A stretch of 64,000 bases of DNA. Source: Cytophagaceae bacterium. GTDB taxonomy: Bacteria; Bacteroidota; Bacteroidia; Cytophagales; Flexibacteraceae. Positions within the stretch are counted from its first letter, which is position 1; each line of letters begins with the position of its first letter. The notes under the pieces were generated by a model, which was not told the DNA's origin, searched no databases, and was given only the letters and a program-made list of their open reading frames with translations. The stretch is from positions 248,001 through 312,000 of the forward strand of contig JAIXYP010000069.1 in the NCBI GenBank assembly GCA_027490155.1. The letters run 5' to 3'. The position numbers were made by a program, and so were the translations under genes. Below, in pieces: positions 1,520 to 23,838 of the stretch.

Positions 1520-3814
1520 CTATTCAGTCCAGACGGCTACTTGCCCCGGCGCTACGGTGCGGCTGCCAAAATGGAACTTGGCATTGGGACCTGGGTTGGC
1601 ATCTTGGTCTTCGCTGGTGTAGTTGACGGCGACCCAGAAACCATCACGCCACTCTTTAAAGAAGTAGGGCTTGAGGTTTTCGGCTTTGATGTTGCGCTCG
1701 GCATAGACTTTTTGCAGCACTGCTAGCTCAAGCTCGCCATCGTCAGAGTCGGTACCGTTGTAGGTAACACTGCCCTTGCCCACTTTGCGATGGATGACCC
1801 CAGCTTTGCCAGCATAGAATTGGCTGGTATGCTGCCCCCAAACTTGCGCAGGGCTGCCATAGGTCGGTTTGGTATGTGGACTCAAGATCTCGCCCCAATT
1901 GTTCCAGTTGAAGTCCTTGCCAGCGAATGCAAGAGTACTTGTGGCATTGTTAGGCAATTGATCATAATAGTCAAGGTTGGCACCGATAAGGTTGCGCAGC
2001 GGGTCGATGTAGGGGCCTTCCCAAAGCTGACCACTGCGGTCTTTCTGGCCAGAGCGGCAACTCAGGATCAGGTGGCCACCTTGCTCCACATAAGTACGCC
2101 AGCGGGCTACGAGTTTAGCATCGACCAACTGATAAGCAGGGGCGATTGCGGTAGGGTACTTGGTTGGGTCGAGCACGATGTCTTCAGACACAAAGTCGAT
2201 AGGGGCACCACTGCGTTTGGCTGCCGAGAAATACCGATAGACATGTTCCCAAGTATCCCATTGGTTGGTGTGTGGATAGTTCTGGAGGTCCCAAAGATTG
2301 TCTTGGTTCCAGAGGATGGCGACTTTGCGGGCTGCGACATCGGCTGGGAGGTTAGCCTTTGGGTTGAATAGTTTTTTGAGCGAGGCGATCTCCTTACCAG
2401 CTTGGATGTATTCTTTGCCACCAAGGCTAGGGGTCACACCATCAGGGTCCATGATGCCGTAGTGATAGAGCTCGCCGCCATAAGTTGGGCGATCGAACCG
2501 ATAGGTGCAGGCGAACTTGCTGCCGAGCCCAAAGTGATGCCAAACCCACATCCGTACCGCGCCGGGCAGTGGTTGCGGATTGAAGGCTCCCCAGTTGATC
2601 TGGCCGGGTTGCAGCTCCATGATGCCCGTGTAGCCATGGGTGGCACGGGCGAAGTCGCTGGCAAAGGCGGTACCTAGGCCACTACCAAGACGATAGCCGA
2701 GTTTGCCGGGGGCATTGTCGAGATAGGTGCTTAACCAATAGAAGGTGAAGGCACTGAAGTCTAGGTGGTCTTTGTTATCATAGAGGTTAACCTCTGGCAA
2801 AAACTTGTAGAAGGCGAAGTTGGAGGTCACCCATTGTTTGGGGTTGATGAGCTTGCGTAGGACCATGGTTTGGTCACGCATATAGTTGCCCATCTCTTGG
2901 CTCTGGAACCGTTGGAAGTCCAGCACTTGGTGTGGGTTGGTGCCAGCTGTTGATTCCTTGTCGTTCGGGATTCGGATCTGATCAAAGCTAGTATAGGTGT
3001 TAGACCAAAAGGCCGCTCCCCAATGTTTGTTGAGGCTATCGATGACGCCATATTTTTGTTTGACCCAAGCCCTAAAAGCCGTTTGGGCAGCTGGGGCATA
3101 GTCATAATGGGCACCGCCATGGCTAGGTTCGTTATCTAGCTGCCATCCGATGACGTTGGGGTTGTTGCCATACCGTTTGCCAAGCTCAGTGACGATTTTT
3201 TTGACATACTCACGGTAGATTGGGCTAGACCAGCTGCCTTGCAAACGACCACCATGGCGCATGGTGCGGCCATCGGCATTCATGATCTGGATCTCGGGGT
3301 GTTTGGCCGAAAGCCAAGCTGGTGGGCAAGGCGATGGGGTACACATAATGACTTTGACCCCGTACTTGGCACATAGGGCCACAGTGGTGTCCAGCCAACC
3401 AAAGCGGTAGTTGCCTTCCGTCGGCTCCATGGCTGCCCAAGCGAACTCGCCAAGGTGGGTGAAGGTAAAACCCAGTTCTGCCATGCGTTTGATGTCCCGC
3501 TCCCAACGTCTTGCAGGCCATGCCTCAGGGTAATAGTAGGCCCCGATCGGCATCAGCTCCTTGCGGTCGAAGAACTTGTCTCCACCATTAGGATTGATGA
3601 CCGTTGTAGCTGGTTTGACCTCGTTGATGCCAAGTTTGGGCGTAGATTGAGCTAGGCCATCATTGGGTGATGTGAGGACCAAGCCTGCCATGAGGCTTAG
3701 GAAAGTGCCGCAAGATTGGAGGTGGCGAAGGATAGGGGGGCTAATGAATGCCATCGGGAATAGGGGTGTTCGGGATATTGAGATGTTTGGGATGCTTTCG
3801 CTCCTGGCTGACAA
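1520..3814 (-). CDS. GH42 family beta-galactosidase, secreted (copy A)
   Basis: Glycoside hydrolase of 764 residues that should release terminal beta-galactose from oligosaccharides. The TIM barrel opens with YYYPEAWP (about 93-100). WQLDNEPS places the acid/base at E229, and MELQPGQINW places the nucleophile at E400; both contexts are typical of GH42. The C-terminal half contains the expected trimerisation-like Rossmann domain and a final beta domain. A hydrophobic N-terminal segment suggests export. The methionine at residue 21 (position 3754) is an alternative start that would give a cleaner signal peptide. It lies 14 nt downstream of a paralogue with the same architecture, last in a four-gene operon with two T9SS proteins. 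The exact substrate (lactose, galactan or arabinogalactan side chains) cannot be read from sequence. Confidence 0.92.
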   Translation of the reverse strand: MSARSESIPNISISRTPLFPMAFISPPILRHLQSCGTFLSLMAGLVLTSPNDGLAQSTPKLGINEVKPATTVINPNGGDKFFDRKELMPIGAYYYPEAWPARRWERDIKRMAELGFTFTHLGEFAWAAMEPTEGNYRFGWLDTTVALCAKYGVKVIMCTPSPCPPAWLSAKHPEIQIMNADGRTMRHGGRLQGSWSSPIYREYVKKIVTELGKRYGNNPNVIGWQLDNEPSHGGAHYDYAPAAQTAFRAWVKQKYGVIDSLNKHWGAAFWSNTYTSFDQIRIPNDKESTAGTNPHQVLDFQRFQSQEMGNYMRDQTMVLRKLINPKQWVTSNFAFYKFLPEVNLYDNKDHLDFSAFTFYWLSTYLDNAPGKLGYRLGSGLGTAFASDFARATHGYTGIMELQPGQINWGAFNPQPLPGAVRMWVWHHFGLGSKFACTYRFDRPTYGGELYHYGIMDPDGVTPSLGGKEYIQAGKEIASLKKLFNPKANLPADVAARKVAILWNQDNLWDLQNYPHTNQWDTWEHVYRYFSAAKRSGAPIDFVSEDIVLDPTKYPTAIAPAYQLVDAKLVARWRTYVEQGGHLILSCRSGQKDRSGQLWEGPYIDPLRNLIGANLDYYDQLPNNATSTLAFAGKDFNWNNWGEILSPHTKPTYGSPAQVWGQHTSQFYAGKAGVIHRKVGKGSVTYNGTDSDDGELELAVLQKVYAERNIKAENLKPYFFKEWRDGFWVAVNYTSEDQDANPGPNAKFHFGSRTVAPGQVAVWTE

Positions 3815-3828
3815 ACGGTGATTGTCAA

Positions 3829-6030
3829 TTACTGCCAGACAGCTACTTCGGTAGGTTTAAGTGTACGCTGGCCAATTAGGAACTTGGTACTGGTCGGGAC
3901 TGGGAGCTGGACTGAGCGCGTGCCATAGTTGCATGCAACCCAGTGCCCATCCCGCCAGTCTATTCGGAGCTCGTTGGGGACTTGCTGAACCTCAACTTTG
4001 CAGAGTTGATAAACCTTCTGGAGAATTGCAGCCTCAAAGTCTTTTGTTTTGGAGTGGACACCGATGTAGGTTATGCCACCCTTGCCGACTTTGTGGTGGG
4101 TGACGGCAGGACGACCAGCATAGAACTGGTCTTGGTATGTGGCCCAAACTTCGGTCTCCGGTTTAGGGTCAATGATGTCGCCCCAAGTGGACCATTGATA
4201 GGTTTTAGAATCGTCTTTCACTTTGAGCGATCCTGCTTGTATGGCTTCGGCAGGGAGGTGATCAAAGAAAGGGATGGCCTTGGCACCGATCAGGTCCAGG
4301 ATAGGTTGTGCCCAAGGGCCTTCCCAGAGGTGGCCACGGTTGTCCATCTGGGCGGTGCGGGCGCTGATCACGACTTGGCCACCATTTTCGGCGTATGCCT
4401 TGAGCTTTGCAGCCGTCTGATGGCTCATGAGCTGGAAAGAAGGCACAATCAGGAAGGGACAGGCAGACCAGTCTCGCAGGGTGTCCGTGTAATCCACAGG
4501 GGCCGTAAAGCTCTTCAAGATGTTGTAATAGCGGAACTGGTGGGCAAAATTGCCTGGCCATTGTTTGGTGCCACCTTGGCATTCTTGTATCCAGTGGTTG
4601 TCTGGCGACCAGAGAATGGCAGCTTTGCGTGCGGTGTAGGCAGCTGGTGGGGCGGCTTTAAGGTTAGGTTGTTGCCTGAGTTGTTTGATCTCACGCATAA
4701 ACTGGCTGAACTCAAGCCCACCCGGCAATGGGGTGACGCCATCTGGACCGACCATGCCATTGTGATAAAGCTCGTTGCCGAACCTAGGCTGGCGATAGCG
4801 ATAGCTGCAAATGAGCTTGAGGCCACCGCTGTAAGCATTCCACAACCACATACGGACGGCACCGGGCATCGGTTGGGGGTTGTATTTGCCCCAATTCACT
4901 TGCCCAGGTTGTAGCTCCATCACCCCAGTGAGGCCATTGATGCTGCGGTAATAGTCATTGGCCCAAGAGATGTTACCGATGCTTCCGAGCCGAAATGAAT
5001 GGCTATTGACCGAGTCGGCATCTCCGCCCCAAACGGGATACATGGTGTAGGTGACGGCATCCAGATCTTGATTGCGCCATGGGTCCACAGGGGAGTGCCA
5101 GTGCATAAAATTGGTGGTCACGAACTGGCGTGGGCTGATGTACTGACGCAAGGTCTGCTGTTGCATCCGCAAGAAATCGGCACAGGCATTTGCTGAGAAG
5201 CGTCGATAATCTAGGACTTGATGGGGGTTGGCGGCTGTATTCTCTTCACCATTGGGGCAGGGTATCTGGTCGAAATTATTGTAGGTATTGGACCAAAAAC
5301 TGGCACCCCAAGCCTCATTAAGTTTTGCAATAGTACCATACTTTGCTCGGAGCCATTGGCGGAAATGTTGTTGGGCATTGGGGCTGTAGTCGGACCGGCT
5401 ATAGTGGCTAGGTTCGTTATCCAGCTGCCAACCCCAAACAGCAGGATGTTTGCCAAATCGTTCGCCCAGTTTGGTGGTAATGGTCCGGACGTATTGTTCA
5501 AACCGTTTGCTGGACCAGCTGCCATGAGTGCGCCCCTGATGGTTGATCGTTTGGCCTGCCCCATTGACCATTAAGATGTCTGGATAATTGCGTGAGAGCC
5601 ATACTGGCGGGGTTGGTGTTGGGGTGCAGAGGATGACCTTGAGCTTGTTTTGGGCAGCAATGTTGAGGACGGTATCGATCCAGCCGAGGCGGTAGGTGCC
5701 CTCAGTAGGCTCCATGGTTGACCAAGCAAATTCGCTTATATGTATGTATTCAAATCCGAGCTTGGCGATGTTCTGGATATCTCGGCTCCACTGGTTTTTG
5801 GGCCAAGCCTCCGGGTAGTAATAGACCCCTGTTTCGACCAGTTTGGATGGGTCAAACCAGGTGTTGGCCATCGGGTTGTTGCTGCCTGATGGCCCTGGCT
5901 GTGCCTGTGTTTGTCCGTACCCTTGTATGCTAATCATCAATGTTAGCAACAAGACTAACATCTGTTGAGGCCTTAAGATGTTTAGCCAGCTTTGTGGCAG
6001 CCTTATGGCAAAAGATTTCGGTAGTTGCAT
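3829..6030 (-). CDS. GH42 family beta-galactosidase, secreted (copy B)
   Basis: Paralogue of the adjacent copy A, 733 residues. It has the same order of motifs: YYYPEAWP (about 70-77), acid/base E206 in WQLDNEPS, and nucleophile E372 in MELQPGQVNW. The N terminus has a hydrophobic stretch (about 23-37) ending in a plausible signal cleavage site before QTQAQ. The two proteins are clearly related along their full length but differ at many positions, so the duplication is not recent. Having both in one operon suggests different linkage or chain-length preferences rather than simple dosage. The stop lies 14 nt before copy A and the start 62 nt after the upstream T9SS gene, so co-transcription is likely. 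Confidence 0.92.
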   Translation of the reverse strand: MQLPKSFAIRLPQSWLNILRPQQMLVLLLTLMISIQGYGQTQAQPGPSGSNNPMANTWFDPSKLVETGVYYYPEAWPKNQWSRDIQNIAKLGFEYIHISEFAWSTMEPTEGTYRLGWIDTVLNIAAQNKLKVILCTPTPTPPVWLSRNYPDILMVNGAGQTINHQGRTHGSWSSKRFEQYVRTITTKLGERFGKHPAVWGWQLDNEPSHYSRSDYSPNAQQHFRQWLRAKYGTIAKLNEAWGASFWSNTYNNFDQIPCPNGEENTAANPHQVLDYRRFSANACADFLRMQQQTLRQYISPRQFVTTNFMHWHSPVDPWRNQDLDAVTYTMYPVWGGDADSVNSHSFRLGSIGNISWANDYYRSINGLTGVMELQPGQVNWGKYNPQPMPGAVRMWLWNAYSGGLKLICSYRYRQPRFGNELYHNGMVGPDGVTPLPGGLEFSQFMREIKQLRQQPNLKAAPPAAYTARKAAILWSPDNHWIQECQGGTKQWPGNFAHQFRYYNILKSFTAPVDYTDTLRDWSACPFLIVPSFQLMSHQTAAKLKAYAENGGQVVISARTAQMDNRGHLWEGPWAQPILDLIGAKAIPFFDHLPAEAIQAGSLKVKDDSKTYQWSTWGDIIDPKPETEVWATYQDQFYAGRPAVTHHKVGKGGITYIGVHSKTKDFEAAILQKVYQLCKVEVQQVPNELRIDWRDGHWVACNYGTRSVQLPVPTSTKFLIGQRTLKPTEVAVWQ

Positions 6031-20804: not shown

Positions 20805-20928
20805 GGAGATTGCCAGTAATATGACGGCTAACTTATTCAACCGAAGCATCTAGACCTTGCTAGCTACCTTTCGGTTGGTAGGGTGGCTAGATTATTGCAT
20901 CTTGGTATTTTGTTCCGATATTAGGGGC

Positions 20929-21996
20929 ATGAAGCTGAGACGGTTATCATACCAGAGTACGACACTAGCAGTCAAAGAGCTGCTGTTGGACGATTGCAAC
21001 TTCGTTGTAGGGCGGAATGGTTCGGGTAAGTCACGGTTGCTGACCCTGCTTGACAACCTGGTAGGCCTCTTGAACAATACCCTTCGGATACATCATGTCG
21101 GGAGGTGGGAGCTAGAGTTTGTGACCAATGATGATCAACCCTTTGTTTACACTTTTGCAATCAAGGGGGGAGATGTTGCCATATCTGCTGAAAAGATCAT
21201 GTATGAAGGCAGACAGGTCTTGTTCAGGCACAAGGATAGCAATGTGTCTATCTTAAACAACCTAACTGGGAAACAAGAGATATTTCAAGTGCCATTGGAT
21301 AAATTGACTATCCTGGCTGTTCGCGATGTGAAGAAGTTTCCTGCACTTGAGCTGCTAGCAGATTGTGCAAACCATTCCTTTGGTTTTCGATTTGCAAATA
21401 TTAGTCCATACGGCAATTTTGCTGATTCAGAATACGAACTATTGACTCGCCTGCCAGCTATTCCGACGCTTTTTAAGCAATTATCCGAAGATAGTAAGCA
21501 GGGGATTGTGCATCAATTACAAAGCCTTGACTATCCGATTATTGATATTGGATATCAAAAGAGCCTTGGTCGTGATGTAATCAGGTTTAAGCTAAAGGAC
21601 CAAGTTTATCTGCAACTACCAGATAAGATGTCCCAAGGTGCGGTTCGTGCAACAGCCCTCTTGATTTTTTTGGAATACTTAACGACTGTCAAGAAGGGAC
21701 ATTTGGTTGTGATTGATGACCTATGCGAAGGGCTGGATTATGAACGTGCCAAACTATTTGGCAAGATGATATTTGACTTGGCAAAAAGGACTGGTATTCA
21801 ACTCCTGGCCACAACAAATGACCGCAATTTAATCAATGTTGTTGACCTCGATAACATTATTGTTGTTGAGTCGATCGGTGAACAAATCGTAACCTATTCG
21901 CGGGCTCAAAACCCGGAGGCATACGAGCACTTTGTCTATACAGGTCTGTCTAACTTTGATTTCTTTACGACGGGCTATTTCAAAGAGATGGTGTAA
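20929..21996 (+). CDS. ABC-type ATPase of a two-gene TOPRIM system
   Basis: Cytoplasmic P-loop ATPase of 355 residues, AAA_15/AAA_21 type, related to OLD, RloA and AriA-like ATPases. Walker A is GRNGSGKS (residues 28-35), the signature-like region is DKMSQGAVR (232-240), and Walker B/D-loop is HLVVIDDLCEGLD (258-270). The residue after the Walker B aspartate is D264 where Glu is usual. No coiled-coil insertion is present. The ATG at 20929 is chosen because the family beta strand starts there; the frame is open to a TTG at 20857. The stop overlaps the start of the next gene by one base (TAATG), so the two are translationally coupled. Base composition is visibly more AT-rich than the flanking ctpA, suggesting acquisition. 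A defence role is inferred. Confidence 0.82.
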   Translation: MKLRRLSYQSTTLAVKELLLDDCNFVVGRNGSGKSRLLTLLDNLVGLLNNTLRIHHVGRWELEFVTNDDQPFVYTFAIKGGDVAISAEKIMYEGRQVLFRHKDSNVSILNNLTGKQEIFQVPLDKLTILAVRDVKKFPALELLADCANHSFGFRFANISPYGNFADSEYELLTRLPAIPTLFKQLSEDSKQGIVHQLQSLDYPIIDIGYQKSLGRDVIRFKLKDQVYLQLPDKMSQGAVRATALLIFLEYLTTVKKGHLVVIDDLCEGLDYERAKLFGKMIFDLAKRTGIQLLATTNDRNLINVVDLDNIIVVESIGEQIVTYSRAQNPEAYEHFVYTGLSNFDFFTTGYFKEMV

Positions 21997-22769
21997 TGGC
22001 GCACAAGGCATTGTTCGTGGAAGGTCAGACTGAGCGGATTTTTGTGGAGGACCTTATCTTGAAAACGCATCAATATACCAATCTCACCTTGGAGGGGTTA
22101 CGTTTGGTTGGCAATACGTACAACAATGAAAGGACGTCATATCCAGACGATTACCCAACTTGTGGTAAGGCAGCCTCTCACTACCTGGTTGTAGATGTTG
22201 GGAATGATGAACGGGTTAAATCAGTAATTTTGGCAAGGCAAGAAGGTATTTGGGATGAGGGTTACCAACAGATTATTGGCCTACGTGATATGTATTCAGA
22301 GGCTTACGAAAAAGCCTTTGATCAAAGTAACTTAGGAAAGAAGCTCTCTAAGAGAACTGTTGACTTGGGGGTAGTATCAAAGTTTCTGAAAGAGGGCAAT
22401 AGCTTTACCCCTGCGGATCATCCGTCAGCAGGAACTTGTCATTTGAGTTTTGCCATCATGGAGCTTGAAACGTGGTTCTTGGCAATGCCAGACGTGCTTA
22501 GTAAGGCATTGGGATTAGATGTGAATGAGGTCAATGATATTATTCAATCAAATACCGACCAGACATTCGATGAGTTTGATTACCAATTTGTCCATCCAGC
22601 TGATATCCTAGATAAAATTTATGGTAAGGCTGGGAAAAGTTATGGCAAAAAGGAAAGCCAAGTTAAATCTATTGTAAGTCACATTCGGCAAGAGGACTAT
22701 GAAAATCTATACTTGACCGGAGTATCGGCCTCATTTTGTGCGTTTTATGAGCTTTTATTTGACCTATGA
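21996..22769 (+). CDS. TOPRIM-like DUF4276-type protein paired with ATPase
   Basis: Protein of 257 residues with no signal or membrane segment. It begins KALFVEGQTERIFVEDLI, the Glu-containing first strand of a TOPRIM-like fold (E9 and E13). LVVDVGNDE follows (D67, D71), and then AIMELETWFLAMPDVLSKAL (about 153-172), which closely resembles the E-x-E-x-W-x-L-A motif of DUF4276 proteins. TOPRIM domains of this class act as metal-dependent nucleases or nicking enzymes in OLD/Gabija/PARIS-type anti-phage systems, where an ABC ATPase controls them. Fixed coupling to the upstream ATPase supports one functional complex. Catalytic activity is inferred: the acidic residues are present, but their geometry cannot be checked from sequence alone. 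Confidence 0.78.
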   Translation: MAHKALFVEGQTERIFVEDLILKTHQYTNLTLEGLRLVGNTYNNERTSYPDDYPTCGKAASHYLVVDVGNDERVKSVILARQEGIWDEGYQQIIGLRDMYSEAYEKAFDQSNLGKKLSKRTVDLGVVSKFLKEGNSFTPADHPSAGTCHLSFAIMELETWFLAMPDVLSKALGLDVNEVNDIIQSNTDQTFDEFDYQFVHPADILDKIYGKAGKSYGKKESQVKSIVSHIRQEDYENLYLTGVSASFCAFYELLFDL

Positions 22770-22801
22770 TAAACATGAAACATTTTGACTAGTTTTGGTG
22801 T

Positions 22802-23623
22802 TTAACTTGTTTCTTTTGGTCTATCCGTACCATCCATCCAATCAATGTACCTAGCCATAAACCGATGATACAAAGGGTCCCAACCTTTGAGGTAGGTGTA
22901 AAACGTCGTGATCCGGGCCTGATGATCCTTATAGATTAGTACAGGAGTTATCGCTTGGTTAAAGACTGCATTAGAAACATGGAGAACCCGATAAGGCTCT
23001 CCATGTGTGATTTTGGCTATTTGCTGAGGGCTAGAACCTTGCTGCACTAACATAATCCCGACCATTGGTTTGGCCGTAGTCGGGTTCGCTTCGGCATAAT
23101 CAAGATAGTGGTTGATTGCAACTATACAATTTCCGCAACTAGGAGTGGAAATCAGATAGACACTATCAGTCGAGATGTTCGCTTTGAGTTGTTGGGCTAG
23201 GTTTTGGTCATGTTCGCTGTTGACCAATGCGTTATACAATATTGCAAACCGGCAGATGAACAGCAATGCAAATACCCCAATAACGATTCGTGGATTATCA
23301 ATTAGCAATAAGCAAGTTGCCAACATTGCCCCAAAGAAAAGATAATAGTAGTCCATTACACGCCAAGGCTCGTCTGAATCTAGGTTGAGCGTAACACATA
23401 GGAGACTAAATGCAAAGAGCATTGTAGGTATCTGCCTAAGTATGTGAACCATTCCTAATCTATACCTCAGCAAATACACAAGTCCGAAAGTAGTTAAGAC
23501 TAGTTCTGTCCCAAGATCAAACCCTGCGACAAGAAGACCGTTGGTCAAAATAACCACTCCAAGAAGACCAGTAACAATAGCTACTGTCTTATACCATTTT
23601 GTTTTTTCAGATTTGGTTGGCAT
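22802..23623 (-). CDS. Membrane protein with C-terminal CxxC thioredoxin-like domain
   Basis: Protein of 273 residues using the ATG at 23623; an ATG ten codons earlier (23653) is also possible. It has about four or five membrane helices (roughly residues 15-130), then a soluble domain with STPSCGNC (C163, C166) after a hydrophobic beta strand (DSVYLI). This is the arrangement of a thioredoxin-fold active site facing the periplasm. The rest of the domain (TPVLIYKD) is also consistent with that fold. Full family membership is not recognised. It may be a thiol-disulfide or peptide-processing membrane protein. Like the two preceding genes it is AT-rich and probably part of the same variable island, but it is convergent with them. 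Confidence 0.6.
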   Translation of the reverse strand: MPTKSEKTKWYKTVAIVTGLLGVVILTNGLLVAGFDLGTELVLTTFGLVYLLRYRLGMVHILRQIPTMLFAFSLLCVTLNLDSDEPWRVMDYYYLFFGAMLATCLLLIDNPRIVIGVFALLFICRFAILYNALVNSEHDQNLAQQLKANISTDSVYLISTPSCGNCIVAINHYLDYAEANPTTAKPMVGIMLVQQGSSPQQIAKITHGEPYRVLHVSNAVFNQAITPVLIYKDHQARITTFYTYLKGWDPLYHRFMARYIDWMDGTDRPKETS

Positions 23624-23838
23624 TGTGCAACTAGGTCTTAGAGGTGGGCGCATTTGTTAGGTATAGACAAGGCCGCCTTTGTCTGGGAAACTTTTGTCAG
23701 TAACCCTAGCGCAATAACGCTACTGCTAGTCAGTAAATTTCCTGTAGGTAGAACAAAAATGTGATTAAAAATATTTGAGTAGTTTTAATCTTATTGCTCA
23801 GCATCTTTTGGCCTGAATAGCAACTGGTACATATTCCC

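Follow-up and report, generated by a model that had tools for sequence, protein, structure and literature searches.

A discrete family of ABC ATPase and predicted TOPRIM nuclease gene pairs with altered Walker B and H-loop residues, a candidate phage defence module

In the PARIS system, the TOPRIM tRNase AriB is kept in check by the ABC ATPase AriA and is set free in response to a phage protein (PMC12409363), and an ATPase hexamer holds three nucleases. OLD proteins of Class 1 and Class 2, which include GajA of Gabija, carry the ABC ATPase and the TOPRIM domain in one polypeptide, wherein E400/E404, D455/D457, T506/E508, and K562 serve the metal site (PMC7049728). AbiL consists of an AAA_21 ATPase (AbiLi) and a small partner (AbiLii), and the PADLOC collection lists a candidate system, HEC-01, comprising the HEC-01A ATPase and the DUF4276-like HEC-01B. 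A literature search returned no paper naming DUF4276, and the text matches to HEC-01 were unrelated.

The window analyzed here, a 64,000-nucleotide stretch of a contig from a Cytophagaceae bacterium, carries two adjacent genes that a sequence-only reading had interpreted as a split ABC ATPase and TOPRIM pair. This interpretation is upheld by the predicted folds and by the active-site residues, and neither finding that this reading had named as counting against it, homologues that mostly occur apart or a second protein with no predicted TOPRIM fold, was obtained. The relevant features are as follows.

20929 to 21996, forward strand: gene A, a 355-residue ABC ATPase of the SMC/Rad50/PtuA type (AAA_21)
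21994 to 21998, forward strand: TAATG stop/start overlap, with the TAA of A at 21994 to 21996 and the ATG of B at 21996 to 21998 (1 nt in common)
21996 to 22769, forward strand: gene B, a 257-residue predicted two-metal TOPRIM nuclease, DUF4276-like
Putative catalytic residues of the gene B product: E9, E13, D98, E156, E158, and K218
20807 to 23832: low-GC segment of ~3.0 kb (GC 42.1%) that holds A, B, and orf283
22802 to 23653, reverse strand: orf283, convergent to A and B, with a hydrophobic N-terminal half and membrane segments by eye

Setting of the pair in the window

The ATG at position 20929 serves as the start of gene A, and the resulting N-terminus agrees with those of homologues, in which M1 is at least 90% conserved. 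The 1-nt overlap reported by the sequence-only reading is present, as are all of the motifs that it listed for the two proteins, and A and B are likely to be translationally coupled. Among relatives the extent of the overlap varies, with 4 nt being the most common. Also as proposed, both genes are richer in AT than ctpA (43.1% GC for A and 41.7% for B versus 51.5% for ctpA and 52.2% for SMC), and the low-GC block extends to orf283 (42.5%).

By sequence reading, ctpA is located upstream of A, and the genes downstream of B are orf283 on the reverse strand, orf187, a methylated-DNA methyltransferase-like gene, and smc. In a congeneric genome, G395, four of these genes have the same order and are highly conserved at the amino acid level (98% for both ctpA and smc, 94% for the methyltransferase-like gene, and 89% for orf187), but only ~53 bp separate ctpA from orf187 versus 3.0 kb in the window. 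This empty site suggests that A and B were gained, or were lost in relatives, within the low-GC segment that also holds orf283. A search of 10 relatives with the B profile gave no match, and within the window's own family the pair is missing from every sampled genome except that of the window.

A mobile element with ends around the pair was considered and rejected, as no terminal repeats were found at the segment, no tRNA is nearby, and no integrase-like gene was seen within. We likewise examined orf283 as a third component. Homologues of this gene were sought in the remaining 340 genomes of the order and next to other pairs, and none was found, which speaks against this role; orf283 is probably a passenger. 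Its C-terminal half is possibly thioredoxin-like (SCGNC). Elsewhere in the window, positions 1520 to 6030 of the reverse strand carry two tandem paralogous genes that resemble glycoside hydrolases (beta-galactosidase type by eye).

Conserved residues and predicted folds of the two proteins

The gene A product carries a Walker A motif (GRNGSGKS, residues 28 to 35), a signature-like sequence (DKMSQGAVR) with S235-x-G237, and the sequence IDDLCEGLD (residues 262 to 270), which includes Walker B (D263-D264) and the D-loop (EGLD, residues 267 to 270). A further motif, TGLSNFDFF, is located toward the C-terminus. These ABC motifs (Walker A, signature, Walker B, and D-loop) are invariant or nearly so across 83 A sequences, and R273 is conserved along with Walker A, S-x-G of the signature, D263, and the D-loop. 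The AlphaFold model (pLDDT 93.8) adopts a fold of the SMC/Rad50/PtuA type, with Z scores of ~17 to 18.6 against solved structures (PtuA 18.6, SMC head 18.0, and Rad50 head ~18).

Two positions depart from the usual ABC catalytic center. Residue 264 is Asp where the catalytic Glu that follows the Walker B Asp is usual, and the H-loop residue 297 is Asn where His is usual; the register of both is backed by alignment with Rad50. The Walker B D-D and the H-loop Asn are present in 83 of 83 A sequences, a figure that for D-D is partly the product of ascertainment, since the search used two motifs and one of them was DD[LI][CG]EGLD. The survey was therefore redone with an HMM on 341 genomes of the window's order, which removed this bias. 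At the threshold of this search 14 genomes matched, and 11 of these hold members of the discrete family. All 12 places that score at least 345 bits encode D-D and have B directly downstream, whereas the next five places score between 92 and 104 bits, are followed by TOPRIM-like partners, and retain the canonical D-E and His. The gap in scores, together with the D-E and His of the next five, indicates that the A-B family is a discrete clade within a wider set of ATPase-TOPRIM pairs. As judged from the alignments, the Walker B Asp and the H-loop change from His to Asn are hallmarks of this clade; neighboring ATPase-TOPRIM families keep Glu and His, consistent with the earlier proposal that the Asp sets the pair apart. 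An Asn in the H-loop has precedent in Class 1 OLD proteins (PMC7049728).

A second, separate ATPase-TOPRIM family was also observed in the order (L155, L156, L157, L159, and L160), wherein Walker B reads DEFEN[SG]LG, the H-loop reads SHHP, and the partner carries a C-x-ETWFL motif.

The gene B product contains the motifs VEGQTER (residues 8 to 14), LVVDVGND, and MELETWFLA. It had been described as DUF4276-like, a description that suits the family, in which 69 of 77 B relatives match DUF4276 at E ≤ 0.001, better than the window protein, whose Pfam matches to DUF4276 (E = 0.0021) and OLD-like_TOPRIM (E = 0.0025) both fall below the cut-off. Searches of solved-structure sequences with B or its profile gave no match. 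The AlphaFold model of B (pLDDT 90.6, pTM 0.90) aligned best by VIA-align with PH0156 (2p62, Z 10.5), followed by the C-terminal region of BpOLD (6nk8, Z 9.3), Xcc OLD (6njw, 8.8), and Ts OLD (6p74, 8.3). AriB (8v46_D) aligned at Z 9.3 over 181 residues with an rmsd of 4.3, and the next unrelated structure scored Z 5.9. Foldseek by itself returned no significant match for this model, and thus the TOPRIM assignment is based on the VIA-align results in combination with conserved residues. The structure prediction therefore gives B an OLD- and AriB-like fold. The solved protein 2p62 is from Pyrococcus horikoshii and may be an archaeal relative of the B nuclease group.

All 77 B sequences examined share E9, E13, D98, E156, E158, and K218, and these residues correspond to the OLD ligands in order, in spacing, and in placement after strands 1, 3, and 4. 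One ligand differs. Where OLD has the first Asp of its D-x-D motif, window B has L96 and all 77 sequences have Leu, Ile, or Val, whereas D98 is kept, so that the metal A site of B is not identical to that of OLD. The fold and the invariant metal-site residues together suggest that B is a nuclease of the two-metal type whose metal A site is slightly altered.

Proposed function, linkage, and genomic neighborhoods

We consider it probable that A and B constitute an ATP-gated nuclease pair that is triggered by phage and blocks phage growth. The A protein would dimerize or oligomerize around ATP, bind B, and keep it inactive until a trigger derived from the phage alters the state of A, whereupon B would be freed or activated. 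The B protein could then cut nucleic acid with two Mg2+ ions, where E9 and D98 would hold metal A, E13, E156, and E158 would hold metal B, and K218 would stabilize the transition state. Phage growth would be blocked by B, probably through damage to host RNA such as tRNA (as for AriB) or to DNA (as for OLD). The least certain step is that A may act as an ATP-bound latch rather than as a cycling motor. Slow ATP hydrolysis would be expected from the family-wide replacement of the catalytic Glu by Asp and of the H-loop His by Asn. We advance only tentatively the fuller proposal that this is a widespread two-gene immune clade in which an ATP-locked, essentially noncycling A latch releases a TOPRIM nuclease on infection.

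Relatives were gathered by using an alignment of five ATPase members. At least 246 A relatives are present in genome contigs from ~13 phyla (as judged from record titles), mostly Bacteroidota, and A was found on 11 IMG/VR contigs. Single-sequence scans with B of the genome and viral contigs returned nothing. The sequence-only reading had called for a survey of co-occurrence, and homologues of the two genes do occur together. The gene immediately downstream of A is B in 89 of 99 loci, and in 12 of 12 family members in the HMM survey, which is free of the motif bias. Of the 10 remaining loci, two end at a contig edge (L051 and L080), four are distant outgroup loci (L101-L103 and L107), and four carry A without B (L025, L053, L055, and L089). 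In one of the latter, a viral contig (L089, 1715-2941), the next ORF is FGE-sulfatase-like (formylglycine-generating enzyme) and precedes genes that resemble phage tail genes by eye. No A-B fusion was seen, and the window and every paired locus examined carry two ORFs. Across 73 pairs, the pairwise distances of A correlate with those of B at r = 0.86, against at most 0.07 in permutations, a value to which shared genome history contributes and which supports, without proving, a physical partnership. A and B are an obligate pair and probably work together as a single unit of the ABC-ATPase/TOPRIM class.

This constant adjacency, a single copy per genome in 36 of 38 cases, and the AAA_21 family naming would also suit a toxin-antitoxin-like or selfish module, in which B is a nuclease toxin restrained by A in an ATP-dependent manner, the pair is retained chiefly because its loss harms the cell, and phage defense is secondary or absent. 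The distribution of the pair, which is patchy and mobile-like and counts in favor of phage defense, also fits such a module. We regard it as unlikely, given that the size of A and its conserved ABC motifs exceed what a simple antitoxin needs, that the related PARIS and OLD are defense systems (PMC12409363, PMC10568477), and that the pair is rare on plasmids, where only two records matched; annotated phages gave no match.

The neighborhoods of the pair vary. Many loci adjoin genes for polysaccharide biosynthesis or housekeeping (gyrB, SMC, and ctpA) rather than defense genes, and the copies that reside in capsule or nucleotide-sugar loci include one on a plasmid and several on chromosomes. Neighbors of the latter kind were identified at L002, L010, L016, L017, L022, L025, L055, and L068, and Bacteroidales clusters of this type hold L002 (5926-7717), L025 (6001-7068, A without B), and L055 (5941-7005, A without B). 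A group of Bacteroidales loci adjoins gyrB. A type I R-M operon initially considered around L039, L044, L050, L064, L075, and L085 was rejected, as the large downstream neighbor is gyrB. At L020 (1626-4526), a gyrB-like gene of 966 codons has an apparent intein (TPDHPVMLRDG block).

A recognizable defense neighborhood is present at a minority of loci. By sequence reading, the pair in Fibrobacter intestinalis (L049, 2752-12140) appears between the mod and res genes of a type III R-M system, and an AAA+HNH (Septu-like) pair is adjacent at L018 and L055. PADLOC families matched numbered 135 and 150 among two sets of 125 neighbor proteins versus 39 among 122 controls from some of the same genomes, and because these counts are nonindependent and include housekeeping homologues, the association with defense genes is suggestive only.

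A chromosomal role, whether in repair, in segregation of the chromosome, or in the control of surface polysaccharides, would account for the pairs that are located inside capsule or O-antigen loci. ABC ATPase and TOPRIM proteins also act in genome maintenance, A has an SMC/Rad50-like fold, and an archaeal OLD ATPase is described as acting in the cell cycle (PMC12796447). We nevertheless find this role quite unlikely, as the pair is absent from most genomes, the congeneric site is empty, and the polysaccharide neighbors differ from locus to locus, with three such loci being related. The phage-defense reading retains our preference, and the points that count against it are the polysaccharide and housekeeping neighbors, the lack of matches in annotated phages and the scarcity on plasmids, the altered metal A site, and the drift of A in the window.

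This drift is substantial. Window A is off consensus at nine of 40 near-invariant positions (W13L, L25F, W146C, E222L, M238A, F300N, M302I, R315S, and F332Y), the most among the 83 members (median 1, next highest 4), and forms the longest branch of the tree (1.5 versus a median of 0.36), which suggests that the window copy may be decaying or specialized. Window B has one departure, at a noncatalytic position. That the pair is a remnant with a drifted A, an intact B, and no current function in the window genome is in keeping with these values and with its absence from all sampled relatives, but is improbable because both frames are open and every ATP-site and metal-site invariant is kept, which decay would not be expected to spare. 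Function can be argued more confidently for the family than for the window copy.

The family is defined by sequence and structure within a loosely catalogued set of ABC-ATPase/TOPRIM candidates, and its DUF4276-type partners gain a nuclease mechanism that can be tested at specific residues. It also offers a natural case of a two-position change in the catalytic center of an ABC ATPase that is kept across ~13 phyla, and makes it possible to test whether gating of a nuclease depends on ATP hydrolysis or on ATP binding alone.

Comparison with known systems

The sequence-only reading described a split into two genes and took the DUF4276-type partner as a distinguishing feature. Neither by itself sets the pair apart, since HEC-01 is already catalogued and both PARIS and AbiL likewise consist of separate genes. 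Indeed, HEC-01 has the same gene order and protein types as the window pair, and by name and model it is the closest entry, with scores that are weak for the window itself. Window A matches HEC-01A at 2.9e-11 and window B reaches a best E of only 0.0017; one HEC-01B model is matched by 60 of 77 B relatives at E ≤ 0.001 (down to 1.4e-10). The HEC-01-like loci L101-L103 are canonical at both positions (D-E in Walker B and His in the H-loop); the window clade instead has D-D, Asn, and the C-terminal GLSNFDFF.

PARIS resembles the pair in that its genes are separate and the AriB fold aligns with B. However, AriB models match neither window B nor any of its 76 relatives, and the match of window A to the AriA model (1.2e-18) has the appearance of a generic AAA_21 match. 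The window proteins were modeled as monomers. OLD proteins, including GajA, share with the pair the combination of ABC ATPase and TOPRIM, the order and spacing of the metal site, and a helical C-terminal portion that supplies a catalytic Lys (K562 in BpOLD), but they are single polypeptides with a complete D-x-D, the first Asp of which is replaced in the B family. For AbiL, window A matches the AbiLi model at 6.3e-21, whereas AbiLii is matched by one of 77 B relatives (2e-5) and not by window B. The heads of Septu PtuA, Rad50, and SMC are the closest solved folds for A, which differs in that it has no long coiled coil, a TOPRIM rather than an HNH partner, and a different Walker B and H-loop.

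Membership in PARIS, OLD, or AbiL therefore fails in each case on at least one defining test. Both features of the broader class, namely ABC motifs with the corresponding fold and a TOPRIM partner with an acidic metal site, are found, and within this known ABC-ATPase/TOPRIM class the window family constitutes a discrete clade.
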